The position numbers and the translations under genes were made by a program. From Candidatus Tectimicrobiota bacterium (GTDB lineage: Bacteria > JACPSX01): a stretch of 15,180 bases of DNA. Of this stretch, positions 2,635-14,246 are shown one piece after another. How positions within the stretch are numbered: position 1 is the stretch's first letter; every line of letters starts with the position of its first letter. The stretch covers positions 1-15,180 of the forward strand of contig JACPSX010000202.1 of the NCBI GenBank assembly GCA_016193065.1, in the 5' to 3' direction. The notes beneath the pieces were generated by a model that did no database searches, was not told the origin of the DNA, and saw nothing but the letters and a program-made list of their open reading frames with translations.

Positions 2635-2916
2635 CTACCGGCCTACTGTTTTTACGGCATGGGCAAGTCGGCCCAGAAGATGTCTCAGATTTTTCAGAAT
2701 GACCCGCCGGCGGATGGCTTTGTCCAGATCTTCAAACGTGATCTGACCCGGATCATACCGTCCCCGCACAGACCCTGTCTTCAGGTCAACATCGATTTCA
2801 CGGATTCCGAGCTCTTCCAGAGCCCGCTGCACCCGCAGGGCTCACAGGCCGCAAACCATCCCGGAGACGACCAGTTCGAGATTGTGCCGGGACGGGCTCT
2901 GGGCTTCTTCAATCAT
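2635..2916 (-). CDS. HMA-domain metallochaperone-like protein, candidate selenoprotein (CxxU)
   Basis: Read through one in-frame TGA (2842-2844), this gives a 93-residue protein with a ferredoxin-like heavy-metal-associated fold. The first strand LELVVSGM is followed by the metal loop C22-G-L-U25, then [38 protein letters not shown] and DKAIRR. Homologues carry Cys-x-x-Cys in this loop, so the TGA replaces exactly the second metal-binding cysteine. A SECIS-like hairpin follows (see 2808-2844). The ATG at 2916 is chosen because the HMA fold begins just after it and an AAAGG lies five nucleotides upstream. The reading frame stays open further upstream, into the Rieske gene. The C-terminal tail ([14 protein letters not shown]) departs from the usual AGY-type ending, and one extra base would restore AIRRAGHSEK, so a small frame error is possible. 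The alternative is a pseudogene created by TGC to TGA. It sits between the Rieske and EamA genes and is probably co-transcribed with them. Confidence 0.68.
2808..2844 (-). promoter_or_regulatory. Candidate bacterial SECIS element after the in-frame UGA
   Basis: On the minus-strand transcript the UGA (2844-2842) is followed 23 nt later by an apical loop GGA (2818-2816). The loop closes an 8-bp stem, CGGGCUCU with AGAGCUCG (2826-2819 with 2815-2808, one G-U pair). This fits the published bSECIS description: stem of at least 4 bp, loop of 3-14 nt with a G in the first two positions, and 16-37 nt between UGA and loop. A competing hairpin, GAGCCC/GGGCTC (2843-2838 with 2825-2820), starts inside the UGA itself. 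The fit is by eye; no folding energy was computed. Confidence 0.55.
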
Positions 2917-2922
2917 CTCAAC

Positions 2923-2940
2923 CTTTGGGGTTACCCAAAG
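2923..2940 (-). promoter_or_regulatory. Hairpin covering the ribosome site of the HMA gene
   Basis: CTTTGGG and CCCAAAG form a perfect 7-bp stem with a 4-nt loop, ending six nucleotides before the ATG at 2916. The 3' arm contributes the AAAG of the presumed AAAGG ribosome site, so folding would hide it. It could tune translation of the HMA gene relative to the upstream Rieske gene. The structure is directly visible; the function is inferred. Confidence 0.35.
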
Positions 2941-3004
2941 ATTTCTCCAGTTCCACTTTGACACGGACACGATCCCTTCCGGGGGGAGATCAGGAAAAGA
3001 TTTT

Positions 3005-3310
3005 TCAGGCGGACACCAGGACGTCTTCCCCCTCAACTTTCACCTGGAAGCACCTGAGTTCGGCGTCGGGATTCGTGATGCAGGCGCCGGTCGTGATGTC
3101 GTACTCCCAGCCGTGCCAGGGGCACGTAACGGTGGCCCCGTCCAGAGAGCCTTCCCCCAAGGGCCCTCCCCGGTGGAGACAGGTGTTGTGGATGGCATAG
3201 AAGGTCCCATTGGTGCGGAAGAGGGCGATCTCCTCCCCGTTGGCGCTGACGACTTTCCCCGTTCCCTCCGGCACTTCGCTCACCCGGGCAACCCTGACAA
3301 AGTTTCCCAT
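3005..3310 (-). CDS. Rieske [2Fe-2S] ferredoxin
   Basis: A 101-residue soluble protein made only of a Rieske domain. Both cluster-binding boxes are present: C44-L-H46-RGGPL and C63-P-W-H66-GWEY, so the 2Fe-2S cluster would be held by Cys44, His46, Cys63 and His66. It resembles the small ferredoxins of aromatic-ring dioxygenases and NirD-like proteins, which carry electrons for a partner oxygenase or reductase; no such partner is encoded nearby. The ATG at 3310 follows a strong GGAGGGGG ribosome site. It is the first gene after the promoter at 3374-3403, with the HMA gene 88 nt downstream. The pairing of an Fe-S electron carrier with a metal-binding protein suggests a metal or redox role, but this is inference. 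Confidence 0.93.
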   Translation of the reverse strand: MGNFVRVARVSEVPEGTGKVVSANGEEIALFRTNGTFYAIHNTCLHRGGPLGEGSLDGATVTCPWHGWEYDITTGACITNPDAELRCFQVKVEGEDVLVSA

Positions 3311-4965: not shown

Positions 4966-5919
4966 TCATGCCCTCCCGGTAGCGGCCCCGCGGCTGGGAC
5001 GCAGGCGCTTCTGGAGGCTCCCCACGATCCCCTCGGGCAAGAAGAGGATGACCAGGATGATGAGAATCCCGTAAATCAGCAGATTGGCCGCGGCAAAGAC
5101 ACTTCTCATGATTTCGGAGGCGATGACGACGATGAATGCTCCGACGACGGGGCCTCCCAGAGTGCCCACTCCTCCCAGGACGGCGACCAGGATCATGGCA
5201 ATAGACACATCGACGATGGAGAACACAATGGGAGGATCGATGTAGCCCATGTAGTTGGCGTAAAAGCTCCCGGCCATGCCCGTGAAGAAGGCACTGATGA
5301 TCAGGGCCTTGATCTTTGTCCCCGTAGTGTTGATCCCCAGTGCTTCCGCCGCATCCTGGTCTTCCCGCACTGCCACCAGGTAGAACCCTAATTTGGAACT
5401 CGTTGCCACGGAAATCACCCAAAGGGTGATGAGGACGATTCCGAGGCCGATGTAATAAAAGGGGACTTTGCTCAGGAATACCGGTGGAAGCAGAATTCCC
5501 ACGGCTCCCTCGGTGAGGGATCTCCAGTTCAAAGCCACCAGGCGCAGGGCCTCGGAAAGGGCAAGAACCGAAAGAGCGAAGAAGGGCCCGCGCAGGCGGA
5601 AGCAGATCCAGCCGATGGGAATGGAGAGGAGCGCCCCCGCCACACCTCCCAGGACCATGCCGATCCAGGGAGAAATCCCTGCTTTGACGAAGAGCAGGGA
5701 AGAGGTATAGGCACCGACGCCAAAAAAAGCAGCGTGACCGAAGGATACCTGGCCCCCGTACCCTCCCAAGAGATTCCAACTGCTGCCCAGGATCACCCAC
5801 ACGAAAAAGAAGATGGCCATATGGAGAAAATAGGGGTCACGCACTGCAACGGGAAAGAGGAGAACAACGGCCAGGAAGACCAGCAGCGGGATCTGAGCAG
5901 GTTCGATTTTCCCCTTCAC
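4966..5919 (-). CDS. livM: Branched-chain amino-acid ABC transporter permease LivM
   Basis: An inner-membrane permease half of the transporter, 317 residues, normal for LivM. Helix-rich throughout, with the family signature [20 protein letters not shown] near the N-terminus, the ATPase-coupling loop [14 protein letters not shown] and the C-terminal [16 protein letters not shown]. The start is a GTG at 5919 that overlaps the livH stop as GTGA and has GGAGGG about six nucleotides upstream. The same frame stays open far upstream into livH, but that longer product would join LivH N-terminal sequence to out-of-frame residues and is not a real protein. Confidence 0.93.
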
Positions 5920-8239: not shown

Positions 8240-11200
8240 TCAGGGCCGCAGCGGTGCGGGCTTGTGCGTCCTTTCTTCCGGGCTCTTCCGCTCGCTCATG
8301 TAGTAGAGGACCGGGACGGCCATGCGGGAAAGCAGCGTGGAGGCCACTTCGCCGGCCATGAGAGAGATGGCCAGGCCCTGGAAGATCGGGTCAAACAGGA
8401 TGACGAAGGCGCCCACCACGACGGCTGCGGCCGTCAGCAGCATGGGCCGGAAGCGCACGGCCCCGGCGTCAATGACGGCCTCCTCCAGGCTCATTCCCTG
8501 CTCCCGGCGCAGCTTCACGAAGTCCACCAGGATGATCGAGTTGCGCACGATGATCCCGGCCCCGGCGATGAAGCCGATCATGGAGGTGGCGGTGAAGAAG
8601 GCCCCCAGGAGAGCATGGGCCGGCAGGATGCCCACCAGCGTCAGGGGGATCGGCGCCATGATGACCAGAGGGGTCTTGAAGGAGCGGAACCACCCCACCA
8701 CCAGGACGTAGATGAGGATCAGGACCGTGCCGAAGGCGATGCCGAGATCCCGGAAGACTTCGTAGGTGATCTGCCACTCGCCGTCCCACTTCATGGCGAT
8801 TTTCTCGGTCAGGAAGGGCTGCTGGGCGCTGTAGCGCTTGATCTCGTAGCCCTCGGGGATCTTCAGGTTCTTGATGGCCCGGTTCAAGTTCAGAATCGCG
8901 TAGACCGGGCTCTCGTCCTTTCCCGCCACGTCGCCGGTCACGTAGACGACCCGCTTCAGGTTCTTGCGGTAGACCTGGGGGGGTTGGGTGGTCTCCTGAG
9001 TCTGGACTAGTTCCCGCAAGGGGATCATGCGGCCCTGGGGGGACAGGATCTGCAGGGAGCTGAGGTCGGCCACACTGGAGCGCTGCGGGCGGGCCAGCCG
9101 CACCCAGATGGGGACGTCTTCTTTTTCTTCGGGGATGTGAGCCAGACCCGCGGCTTCCCCTTCCACGCCGATCTTCATGGCCCCCAGGATCTGCTCCGTG
9201 CTGATGCCGTTCAGTGCGGCTTTCTCCTTGTCCACGATCAGGCGGACCTTGGGCTGTGGGTCTTCCACGTACCAGTCCACGTCCACGACCCCGGGAGTCT
9301 TCTCGAAAACTTCCTTGATCTGTCCGGCCACCTCGATCTGCCTCTGGTAGTCGGGGCCGTACACTTCGGCCACCAGGGTCTGCAGGACCGGCGGGCCCGG
9401 CGGGATCTCGGAGATTTTCACCCGGGCCCCGTAGGGGCGGGCGATCCGGTCGATTTCCGGGCGCACCCGCTTGGCGATGTCGTGACTCTGGAAAGAGCGC
9501 TCCCCTTTCGGCAGCAGGTTCACCTGAATGTCCGCCGTGTGCGGGCTCTGGCGCAGGAAGTAGTGACGCACGAGGCCGTTGAAGTTGTAAGGGGAAGAGG
9601 TCCCCACGTACATCTCGTAGTCGGTGACCTCCGGCACGCGGCCCAGATAGTTCCCGATGGCGCGGGTGACCTGCGCCGTTTCCTCCAAGGGAGTTCCTTC
9701 CGGCATGTCGATGATCACCTGGAATTCGCTCTTGTTGTCGAAGGGGAGCATCTTCACGGTAACGACCTTGGTGAAGACGAGGGCAACCGCGGCCAGGAGC
9801 AGCACGACGACCCCAGCCAGAAACAGGAGGCGTATCCCCGGGCGCTCCAGGAGCGGAGTCATCAGACGGCGGTAGAGTCGTGTGGTCCAATCTTCTTTCC
9901 CTTCGTGCCCGTGTTCCCCGTGAGGGCGCAGGACCCGGCGCGCGGCCCAGGGGGAGATGACGAAGGCGATGAACAGGGAGAACAGCATGGCCATGGAAGC
10001 CCCCACCGGGATCGGCCTCATGTAGGGACCCATGAGCCCGCCCACGAAGGCCATGGGGAGGATGGCGGCAATGACGGTCCAGGTGGCCAGGATCGTGGGG
10101 TTGCCCACTTCCGCCACGGCTTCCACGGCCACGTCGGCGGCGGGCCGGCCCTTGTTCTCCGGCAGGTGGGAATGGCGGGTGATGTTCTCCACCACCACGA
10201 TGGCGTCGTCCACGAGAATGCCGATGGAAAAGATGAGGGCGAACAGGGTGACCCGGTTCAGCGTGTATCCGTAGATGTAGTAAATGAAAAGGGTGAGGGC
10301 CAACGTCACAGGGATCGCAATGAGCACCACGAGGGAAGATCGCCACCCCAGGGCGAGCGCGATCAGAATCGTCACCGAGATCGTGGCCAGCAGCAGGTGC
10401 TCCAGAAGCTCGTTGGACTTCTCCTGGGCCGTCTCCCCGTAGTTGCGGGTGATGGTCACCTGGAGATCGGAAGGAATTAAGCGGCCGCGCAGGTCGTTCA
10501 CCTTCTCCAGCACGTGGTTCGCGATGACGACAGCGTTGGTCCCCTTGCGCTTGGCCACCGCGAGGGTCACGGCCGGAAAAGCTTTATCCTGCGATGCGGT
10601 CAGGCGCACGCCTTTTTTCGCGGCGGCGGGTCCCAGACCCAGCAAAACGTAGTTCCTGGGTTCCTCGGGCCCGTCGACCACCTGGGCCACGTCCCGCAGG
10701 TACACGGGCCGTCCCGAGGAAGAGCCCACCACCAGGTTTCCGACCTCCTCCGCGCTTTTCAGGAAGATTCCGGTCTCTACCAAGACCTCCCGGTTTCCCG
10801 ACGTGAAGCTCCCGGTGGCCACTTCGCGGTTGGAGGCCCCGAGGGCGCCCACCACACGTAGCGGGTCCAGGTGGTAGGCGGCCAGGCGGGCCGGGTCCAG
10901 CAGGACCTTCACCTGCCGCCGCTCGCCGCCGATGATCCGGGTCTCGGAGACGTCGGCAATGTTCTTGATCTGGTCGTCAAGCTGGGCGGCCACGCGGCGC
11001 AAGGTGCTCCCGTCGTACGCGGGCCCCCACAGGGTCAGGGACAGGATCGGCACGTCGTCGATGGAGCGCGGCTTGATGAGCGGCTGGGAAGCCCCCTGGG
11101 GGATCAGATCGAAGTTCGAGTACATCTTGTTGTAGAGGCGCACCAGGGCGTCTTCTTCCTTTTGCCCCACGTAGAAGCGGACGATGGCCATGCTCATGCC

Positions 11201-11479
11201 CGGGCCCGTGGTGGAGTAGACGTATTCCACGCCCGGAATCTCCCAGAGCTTTTTCTCCATGGGGATCGTGACGCGCTCCTCCACTTCCTTGATGCTCGCC
11301 CCGGGCATCTGTACGAAAACATCGGCCATGGGGACGACGATCTGGGGCTCCTCCTCCCGCGGGGTGCCGAGAATGGCGAAGACGCCCAGAAGAAGCGAAG
11401 CTACGATGATCAGGGGAGTGAGCTTGGATTCGATGAACGCGTGGGCGGTTTTTCCCGCCAGTCCGAGTTTGCCGCTCAT
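8240..11479 (-). CDS. RND-family efflux pump, inner-membrane subunit (AcrB/HAE1-like)
   Basis: A 1079-residue proton-driven exporter, close to the usual 1030-1080. It has the RND layout: TM1 ([17 protein letters not shown]), a periplasmic porter domain with the typical FVQMPGAS and [18 protein letters not shown] motifs, a central helix group, a second porter domain, and final helices. The TM4 proton-relay pair is present ([12 protein letters not shown], Asp424-Asp425), which points to the HAE1 drug/organic type rather than metal-exporting CzcA. The TM10 lysine of AcrB is an arginine here ([12 protein letters not shown], Arg979). The ATG at 11479 overlaps the adaptor stop as ATGA, so the two are translationally coupled. 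It works with the adaptor and TolC-like proteins encoded upstream. Substrate unknown. Confidence 0.95.
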
Positions 11480-12690
11480 GGCAGGGCCTGCACGCGGCCG
11501 CCGTCTGCGGCCCTGGAGACCTCGCTCGTGAGGATTCGCTCACCGGCGGCGAGCCCGGAGAGAATTTCGATCCGGCCGTCGTACGTCGCGCCTGTCTTGA
11601 CCAGCCTCAGGCGGGCCGTATTTTGGCCGTCCACCACGAAGACCCCCTGGAGTTGTCCCCGGGTGACCAGTGCTCCGGCGGGGATCAGCACGGCTTCCTT
11701 CCGTTCCCGGGGAAAGCTGGCCGTGCCGTACAGCCCCGAGCGCAAAGAGGGGAGCGGGGGGAGATCGATCTTCACCGTGAAGGTGCGGCTGGCGGGGTCT
11801 GCGGCCGGGACGATCTCGGCCACCCGGCCCGAGAGATTCTTCTCTCCCAGCGCATCAATTTGAACCGCGACCGCCTGTCCCCGCCGGACGGTGGCGATTT
11901 CCGTTTCTCCCACGCCGGCTTCCAGCCGGTGATGTCCCGTCTCTTCCATGACGATCAAGGGACGGCCGGGAGCGGCCATGTCCCCCACCTCGGCTTTCTT
12001 CTCCAGAATCTGCCCGCGAAACGGGGCCACGACTGTGGCGTAGCCGAGAGCCACGCGCGCCGCGCCGGTCTCCGCCTGGGCCTGGGCGATGCGTGCTTCC
12101 ACCTGCTTCTTGCGGGCTTCCAGGGAGAGAATTCGCGCCCTGGCCTGTTCCACCTGCGCTTCCGCGGCCCGGGCCTTGGCCTGCACTCCTTCGTATTCAT
12201 GCGGGCTCACCGATTTTTCCTGGAAGAGCTGGCTGTAGCGTGAGAGTGTAGCGGCGGCATACTGGCGGTTCGCTTCAGTTCCGCTGAGGGCGGCTGCAGC
12301 CTCGCGCAGGGACTGGTCCACCTCATCGATTCCCCGGCGGGCCTCATCAAGCGCTGCCTCGGCTCTGCGAACTTGGGCCGCCAGGTCTCTGTCGTCAATC
12401 ACCGCCAGCACTTCTCCGGCGGAAACAATGGCACCTTCCCGGGCCCAGAGTTCCTTCACGGTGCCGAGAATCCGGGAGGAGACCTCGGCCGTCGTCCTGG
12501 CCTTCACGGTTCCCACCGCCCAGAACGCATCGGGGACGGAGGTTTTTGCAACTGTCTCCACTCGTGCTTGCAGGGCCGTAGAGACCTGGGGCTCCGGAGG
12601 CCGCGGCTCCTCCTTACGGCACCCGAAGAGGGTGAGGATGAGCACAGCCAGGAGGAAAACGTATGAAAGATTCCGGTATGAGGGACGCAT
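11476..12690 (-). CDS. RND efflux membrane-fusion (adaptor) lipoprotein, HlyD/AcrA family
   Basis: The periplasmic adaptor that links the RND pump to the outer-membrane channel. 404 residues from the ATG at 12690, with AGGAG six nucleotides upstream. The N-terminus is a lipoprotein signal: hydrophobic [14 protein letters not shown] with a lipobox at Cys24. Next come a first lipoyl half (about 60-100, [17 protein letters not shown]), a long Ala/Glu/Arg-rich coiled-coil hairpin (about 101-212), the second lipoyl half ([18 protein letters not shown]), a beta-barrel, and a membrane-proximal domain. The frame is open 69 codons further upstream to the tolC stop, but that stretch is translated repeat DNA and would bury the signal peptide. 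It is coupled to the RND gene by ATGA. Confidence 0.94.
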
Positions 12691-12728
12691 CCTCGTCTCC
12701 TGAGTCGGAATTCCCCGCACTAAAATCC

Positions 12729-12840
12729 CCTCTCCCCCGTGGGGGAGAGGATTAAGGTGAGGGGGCGCTCCGACTGTGTCTACCCCCTCTCTCGAGGGAG
12801 AGGGAATCCGAACTCTTTCCTCTCCCCCACGGGGGAGAGG
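12729..12840. repeat. Three palindromic repeat units between tolC and adaptor genes
   Basis: Units 1 and 3 are near-identical hairpins, CCTCTCCCCC and GGGGGAGAGG, with loops GT (12729-12750) and AC (12819-12840). Each is followed by a related tail (GGTGAGGGGGC, GGTGAAGGGGC). Unit 2 (about 12783-12804) is a variant, CCCTCTC with GAGAGGG. This sequence type is a widespread dispersed intergenic palindrome in proteobacterial genomes, known from its spurious PLPHGGE-type translation. It fills most of the 203 nt between the two genes and may stabilise or partly terminate the transcript. Confidence 0.8.
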
Positions 12841-12893
12841 GCCAGGGTGAAGGGGCAAGAACGCCCTTGCGGATAAAGTTGAGAGGCGTGACA

Positions 12894-14246
12894 TCACAGT
12901 TCCTCCCCGACCGCCAGGTCAATCTTGGCCTTGGCCACCGCGTAGTCGTACAGGGCCTGCAGCGTGCGCATCCGGGCCTCCGTGAGCCGTACTTCACCAT
13001 CCAGAAGTTCGACGATCGTGGTGAGACCCGAGTTGTAGCGGTTCTGCGTGATGCGCAGGCTCTCCCGGGCCTGATCCACGGCTTTTTCACTGGCTTGAAT
13101 CCGTCCCCGGGCCGTCAGGAGATCCAGGTGCGCCTGCCGCACCTGCAAGGAAATCCCCTGTTCCAGGCGCTCCTGGAGGGCCTTCACCCGCAGGACTCCC
13201 GCTCGGGCCTCCTCCACGCGGGAGCTCGTTCCCAGCCCGTCAAAGAGGTTGATGCTCAGCGTCACCATGCCCGTCCAACTCTCCCCACGGGTGCCCAGGA
13301 AGTGCTCCTCGTTGAGGTCATAGCGTCCGCCCAGGTTCAGGCGGGGCAAGTAGTCGGAGCGGGCCAATCGAACCCCCTGTTCGGCGACCCGCACCTGGAC
13401 ACGCAGGGCTTCCAGATCGGCGCGGGAGCGCAGCGCCCGTCTCTTCAGTTCCTCCGGGTCCTGCTTGAACTCGAAAAACTTGAGAGCCTCCGTGACGCGG
13501 AAGGCTCGGGCCTCGTCAACCCCCATGATCGTGTTGAGAGCGGACCGGCTCAGAGTCAGGCCGTTTTCCGCCGCGATGAGGAATTCCCGCACCTGGGCCA
13601 GGCGCACCTCGGCGCTGAGCACGTCGGACTCCACGACCAGCCCGGCCCGGAAAAGGGAGCGGGCTTGAGCCTCGTGAGCTTCGGCGGTTTTCAGCGTCTC
13701 CCGGGCCACCTGAAGCTGCTCCCGGCCCAGGATCACGCCGTAATAGGCCTGCGTCACGTCGAACCGCAATTGATCGAGCGTGCGACGGTCTTCCCTTTGC
13801 TTGGCCTCGTGAGCCAGCCGCGACTGGTTCAGGCCGGTCCACTCCTTGCCGCCGTTGTAGACGGGCTGCGTGATCTCCAGATAGGTGTTGAAGTTGGAAA
13901 TCGCGGCCGGATCATTGAGCCGGCGGGGGTCGAAGTCGCCCGTCGTGACTCGTTCCTGATTGAGCCGGTCGCCGAAAGCCATCAAGGGGCTGGTGGTTCT
14001 GTGAAAGGATGTCCCCACGTCGATCCGCGGCAAAAGCTGCGCCCGCGCCTGCCCCACTTTCGCCAGGGCCATGGCCACCTCCTGCTCCGAGGCCTTCAGG
14101 AGCGGGGAGTTTTGCAGAGCCACCGAGAGGGCCTGGGTCAGGGACAGGGGTTCCGCCTCAGCGGCGGGCTTGACTTCCTGGGCAAGCAGGGGGTGAGAAA
14201 ACAAAACCACAACAAGCACCGTGAGAATGAATTTCAAAATGTTCAT
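12894..14246 (-). CDS. TolC-family outer-membrane efflux channel
   Basis: A 450-residue outer-membrane factor of the tripartite pump. It has a signal peptide (MNILKFILTVLVVVLFSHPLLA) and then two OEP repeats of long alpha-helical hairpins. The first has the typical opening LSLTQALSVALQNSPLLKASEQ and QARAQLLPRIDVG; the second begins SRADLEALRVQVRVAEQGVRLARSDYLPRLNLGG. The C-terminal helix carries RYNSGLTTIVELLDGEVRLTEA, a family hallmark. The ATG at 14246 follows GGAGGT seven nucleotides upstream. It is the first gene of the efflux operon, followed 203 nt later by the adaptor gene. A TATAAA at 14275-14280 on the minus strand could be a -10 box, but it lacks a clear -35. Confidence 0.94.
   Translation of the reverse strand: MNILKFILTVLVVVLFSHPLLAQEVKPAAEAEPLSLTQALSVALQNSPLLKASEQEVAMALAKVGQARAQLLPRIDVGTSFHRTTSPLMAFGDRLNQERVTTGDFDPRRLNDPAAISNFNTYLEITQPVYNGGKEWTGLNQSRLAHEAKQREDRRTLDQLRFDVTQAYYGVILGREQLQVARETLKTAEAHEAQARSLFRAGLVVESDVLSAEVRLAQVREFLIAAENGLTLSRSALNTIMGVDEARAFRVTEALKFFEFKQDPEELKRRALRSRADLEALRVQVRVAEQGVRLARSDYLPRLNLGGRYDLNEEHFLGTRGESWTGMVTLSINLFDGLGTSSRVEEARAGVLRVKALQERLEQGISLQVRQAHLDLLTARGRIQASEKAVDQARESLRITQNRYNSGLTTIVELLDGEVRLTEARMRTLQALYDYAVAKAKIDLAVGEEL

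Follow-up and report, generated by a model that had tools for sequence, protein, structure and literature searches.

A predicted selenoprotein subfamily with a Cys-x-Leu-Sec motif in a stand-alone HMA domain

Introduction

The closest described relatives of the protein analyzed here are the HMA-domain metallochaperones CopZ and MerP (NF033795, TIGR02052) and a few metal-related proteins that contain selenocysteine (Sec, U). The known Sec-containing kin are NF041115 (UxxU), a cation-transporting ATPase (UxxC) and a mercuric transport protein (C/SxxU) (PMC13188914), and MerP with Sec has been found in marine metagenomes (PMC2398784). The statement in the initial annotation of this locus that HMA-type selenoproteins were already known is borne out by NF041115 and others. 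A stand-alone CxxU HMA family is absent from the list of 119 families in a 2026 review (PMC13188914).

We analyzed a stretch of 15,180 nucleotides (the window) from Candidatus Tectimicrobiota bacterium, which carries a gene for a predicted HMA protein with the motif C-x-L-U. Like this protein, NF041115 (UxxU_metal_bind, a metal-binding (seleno)protein earlier called "putative mercuric reductase") has an HMA domain with Sec in the metal motif, and both UxxU genes compared (L156 and L176) have a hairpin at the same distance as that of the window gene. However, NF041115 has two Sec residues (UxxU rather than C-x-L-U) and its model, at 74 positions, is shorter than the window protein, which scores 37.2 bits against a cut-off of 95 and, as a CxLU protein, is not a member. 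NF045683 (MerT_CopZ_Se, a MerT/CopZ fusion-like heavy metal transport selenoprotein, listed as "putative mercuric transport protein", C/SxxU) is also a selenoprotein with an HMA-like part; it has a MerT membrane part that the window protein lacks, and the window protein is not a member (16.1 bits, cut-off 375). CopZ and MerP share with the window protein the HMA core and the GMxCxx(C) motif, but they have Cys in place of Sec and lack the terminal extensions; the match to CopZ NF033795 is 40.5 bits against a cut-off of 91, with CxLU instead of CxxC, which again excludes membership. The cation-transporting ATPase E1-E2 selenoprotein (UxxC) also has Sec in the motif of a metal-transport protein, although at the first position and within a P-type ATPase, unlike the window protein (PMC13188914, Table 1). 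None of the NCBIfam cut-offs tested was passed by the window protein or by the two copies from genome G278 described below, the other members being judged by E-value. CxLU appears to be a selenium-only HMA subfamily, found here in eleven genomes and unnamed in the NCBIfam and PMC13188914 lists compared, although GenBank may contain entries for it that neither list covers.

Results

Gene structure and reading frame

The minus-strand frame 2964-2635 contains one in-frame stop, the TGA at 2842-2844, before the TAG at 2635-2637. Read through this TGA, the frame matches Pfam HMA (PF00403) with an E value of 2.2e-10 (41.2 bits, gathering cut-off 24.8). The TGA coincides with the column of the second Cys in CxxC, giving the motif C38-G39-L40-U41 when counted from the GTG at 2964. 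The frame and the Pfam match confirm the earlier placement of this TGA at the second Cys of an HMA CxxC motif. The gene has no lesion besides the TGA, and the downstream HMA frame is intact. The features of the gene are as follows:

2635 to 2964, minus strand: predicted HMA-domain selenoprotein gene of the CxLU subfamily, 109 aa, GTG start, TAG stop, with a single in-frame TGA, Pfam HMA and a full-length alignment with 11 homologues
2842 to 2844, minus strand: TGA, predicted to specify selenocysteine (U41) at the second metal-binding position of C-G-L-U
2974 to 2980, minus strand: Shine-Dalgarno-like GGAAGGG, 9 nt before GTG 2964, read from the sequence and of putative function
2808 to 2826, minus strand: bSECIS-like hairpin CGGGCTCT[GGA]AGAGCTCG, its loop beginning 23 nt past the TGA, assessed by covariation and a codon-draw test

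The start of the gene is more likely GTG 2964 than ATG 2916, which is possible, because of the GGAAGGG upstream and because the N-terminal RNLWV is kept in homologues: the additional N-terminal residues KWNWRNLWV align with KWRNLW, RLRNLRV and IQWRNL. With this start the Sec is residue 41 rather than 25, so the motif described earlier as C22-G-L-U25 stands, with its numbering changed to C38-G-L-U41.

Homologues and conservation

Eleven homologues were found in ten other genomes. Nine of these homologues come from the phylum of NC10 bacterium CSP1-5 (now named Methylomirabilota), and a single genome from a second phylum contributes the remaining two. In the first phylum, a full-length relative whose motif contains a single TGA is present in 9 of the 95 genomes. 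When 297 genomes from the phylum to which a Binataceae MAG belongs were searched with a profile, one of them (G278) gave two copies, scoring 88 and 85 bits; the hits below these, none above 64 bits, span the HMA core and no more than a few extension residues. In a domain-wide sample of 386 genomes there was no full-length member besides the window's own gene, and a contig scan with the HMA protein, whose patterns put Cys codons at the Sec site, returned no relative.

The 12 proteins align over their whole length, the homologues being 33-41% identical to the window protein, and share an N-terminal RNL motif, the HMA core and a C-terminal VxLPxxRR tail. Residues N8, V33, G35, C38, L40, U41, A42, V45, L49, G53 and R94 are invariant. 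The U41 column is TGA in all 12 full-length members from 11 genomes, the conserved UGA that is looked for in a selenoprotein. The exchanges between U and C that had been expected at this column do not occur within the subfamily: no Cys form was seen in about 960 genome scans, and CxxC is present only in more distant HMA proteins, namely CopZ-like and ATPase domains. Seven pairs were compared for dN/dS past the TGA: four give about 0.26-0.36, two closely related ones that differ at few sites give 0.7-0.8, and the last lacks synonymous changes. In-frame TGA codons were also observed in a gene for a MerP-like CxxU protein with a repeated domain (L219:3102-3293) and in an HMA frame of ATPase size, which has one (L226).

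The hairpin downstream of the UGA

RNA folding past the UGA predicts the hairpin CGGGCUCU-GGA-AGAGCUCG at 2826-2808, with 8 bp including one G-U and a loop that begins with G. The hairpin, the G in its apical loop and its fixed distance past the UGA together correspond to a predicted bSECIS element. The initial annotation had the GGA loop 23 nt after the UGA, the 8 bp and the leading G right, and only the position needed correction to that given here. In a codon-draw test, in which the amino acids were fixed and synonymous codons were taken from neighboring genes, 0.35% of draws produced as many Watson-Crick pairs at this position, a share that rose to 1.0% when the whole bSECIS range of +13 to +32 was allowed. 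For other subfamily members the figure ranged from 0.7% to 32%, weak alone in several, so the hairpin on its own is not decisive. Its conservation is also partly due to protein constraint, because it overlaps the codons of the conserved RALEGL (RALEEL in the window protein).

Each of the eleven homologues has a hairpin downstream of its TGA. In a comparison of TGA-bearing HMA genes, all 12 (10 CxLU genes, the window gene included, and 2 UxxU genes) have a stem of six or more pairs at +23, closed by a 3-nt loop whose first base is G. Only 3 of 52 CxxC homologues have any stem of at least six pairs at +23 (Fisher 1.4e-10, relatedness ignored). Four of the eight stem pairs are changed on both sides among 10 sequences, and the covariation score was matched by none of 500 shuffles and was lower in slid controls. 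The hairpin at +23 is also present in L177, a UxxC gene with the TGA at the first Cys and Cys at the second. The subfamily member L218 has a 6-bp stem (GGAGCC-UGGAGC-GGCUCC) one nt earlier.

Sec-decoding machinery

The genome of the window contains an intact SelB of 639 aa (370-371 bits) and two SelD genes (410 and 382 bits), each with one in-frame TGA at the known Sec position. These are two different SelD genes in one genome, at G000:C175:8424-9350 and G000:C120:3960-4886 (L050 and L051), and the C175 copy sits after ABC transporter genes (binding protein, ATPase and two permeases). Neither SelA nor tRNA-Sec was found in the assembly, which is 86% complete and in 294 contigs. The matches to RF01852 that were checked are ordinary tRNAs, three matches to a tRNA-Sec pattern are not tRNAs, and no SelA remnant was seen upstream of SelB. 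The complete lack of sel genes that the initial annotation named as evidence against its reading is not what we find, although of the sel genes it listed only selB and selD were found in this incomplete assembly.

SelA is encoded by each of the nine CxLU-carrying relatives that share a phylum with NC10 bacterium CSP1-5. Of eight relatives scanned for tRNA-Sec, six have it, with anticodon TCA; among the same-phylum relatives carrying the CxLU gene the figure is three of four scanned. In two relatives tRNA-Sec and selA are no more than 3 kb apart, and a single assembly gap could therefore hide both here. In the window itself TGA is a normal stop, ending six of seven clear neighboring genes.

Genomic context

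The gene immediately upstream is on the same strand:

3005 to 3310, minus strand: Rieske-type ferredoxin (Pfam Rieske E 4e-24), 40 nt upstream of the HMA gene

The two genes are perhaps co-transcribed. The adjacency reported earlier is correct, while a conserved partnership is not seen: a scan of 78 Rieske loci found an HMA gene alongside in none, the closest Rieske relatives included. No conserved, metal-related operon partner of the CxLU gene was found among the genomes compared, and the neighbors vary by clade, with Rieske here, GroEL in one clade and PgsA and Der in another (PgsA and Der read from ORFs). In G278, the stretch L217:1769-15570 is a metal-resistance stretch with an ArsP-type permease, CusF, TlpA-like, MerB-domain, DUF302 and SCO1 proteins, and it carries two HMA selenoprotein genes, UxxU at 5393 and CxLU at 10563. 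Elsewhere in the window, positions 8240-14246 hold a same-strand efflux system composed of a TolC-like outer membrane protein, a membrane fusion protein and an RND pump.

Discussion

The comparison of sequences establishes a conserved UGA, a conserved hairpin, selection on the post-UGA protein in most pairs tested, and SelB together with SelD. Strong support for the selenoprotein reading first put forward as a candidate comes from the TGA shared by 12 of 12 members, the hairpin, the SelB and SelD genes of this genome and the SelA of all nine relatives tested; we infer that Sec is actually inserted and that the window gene very probably encodes a selenoprotein. SelB would carry Sec-tRNA to the UGA, helped by the hairpin just downstream, yielding a small HMA-fold protein with the metal motif Cys-x-Leu-Sec.

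The absence of both SelA and tRNA-Sec from the assembly would also be expected if Sec decoding had recently been lost in this lineage, so that the gene now yielded a stub of 40 residues and the selenoprotein was made in relatives only; this we consider improbable, given that SelB, the two TGA-containing SelD genes and the downstream HMA frame are all intact. The same absences could point to an ordinary CxxC gene damaged by a nonsense mutation or misread in sequencing, which is very improbable when the TGA recurs at this codon in eleven homologues from ten further genomes, the hairpin is kept and there is no other lesion. Genome-wide decoding of TGA as an ordinary amino acid is the least credible of these possibilities: it would account for the in-frame TGA of both SelD genes, but that codon sits at the known Sec position, and the neighboring genes that end in TGA contradict it.

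A different question is what a selenoprotein of this kind does. The motif C-G-L-U might form a selenenylsulfide, making the protein a thiol/selenol oxidoreductase rather than a metal carrier. Other selenoproteins (SelW-like, GrdA) use CxxU as a redox motif, the CxLU motif is invariant, and the loop-5 Gly-Tyr of the metallochaperone CopZ is not kept in CxLU proteins, so that a copper role in particular is not established. Against this, the profile matches are to metal-binding HMA domains: those in the PDB are to CopZ, MerP and ATPase domains. A single-sequence AlphaFold model is weak (pLDDT 62); its best PDB matches are CopZ-like, none reaching E 0.001. Because the profiles match soft-metal carriers and one member lies on a metal-resistance stretch, we favor soft-metal binding and regard the redox alternative as rather unlikely. 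Binding of a soft metal (Hg/Cu) is probably the role of the protein, and is the most likely of the putative roles. The selenol beside the thiol would bind Hg(II), Cu(I) or Ag(I), and this binding may serve trafficking or sequestration.

Automatic annotation can be expected to split this gene or drop it: the part before the TGA would be called as a stub of 40 residues and the remainder as an orphan ORF that lacks the metal site. We tentatively suggest that these genes define a stand-alone HMA subfamily with an obligatory Cys-x-Leu-Sec motif, in which selenium is essential and is likelier to be a soft-metal ligand than a redox center; selenium would be essential to CxLU function because no Cys version was seen in the genome scans. 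To our knowledge, Sec has been little studied as a metal ligand other than in Mo/W and Ni enzymes. A soluble Cys-x-x-Sec protein of small size, of a fold whose CxxC affinities are well measured, would make a direct comparison of selenol with thiol possible.
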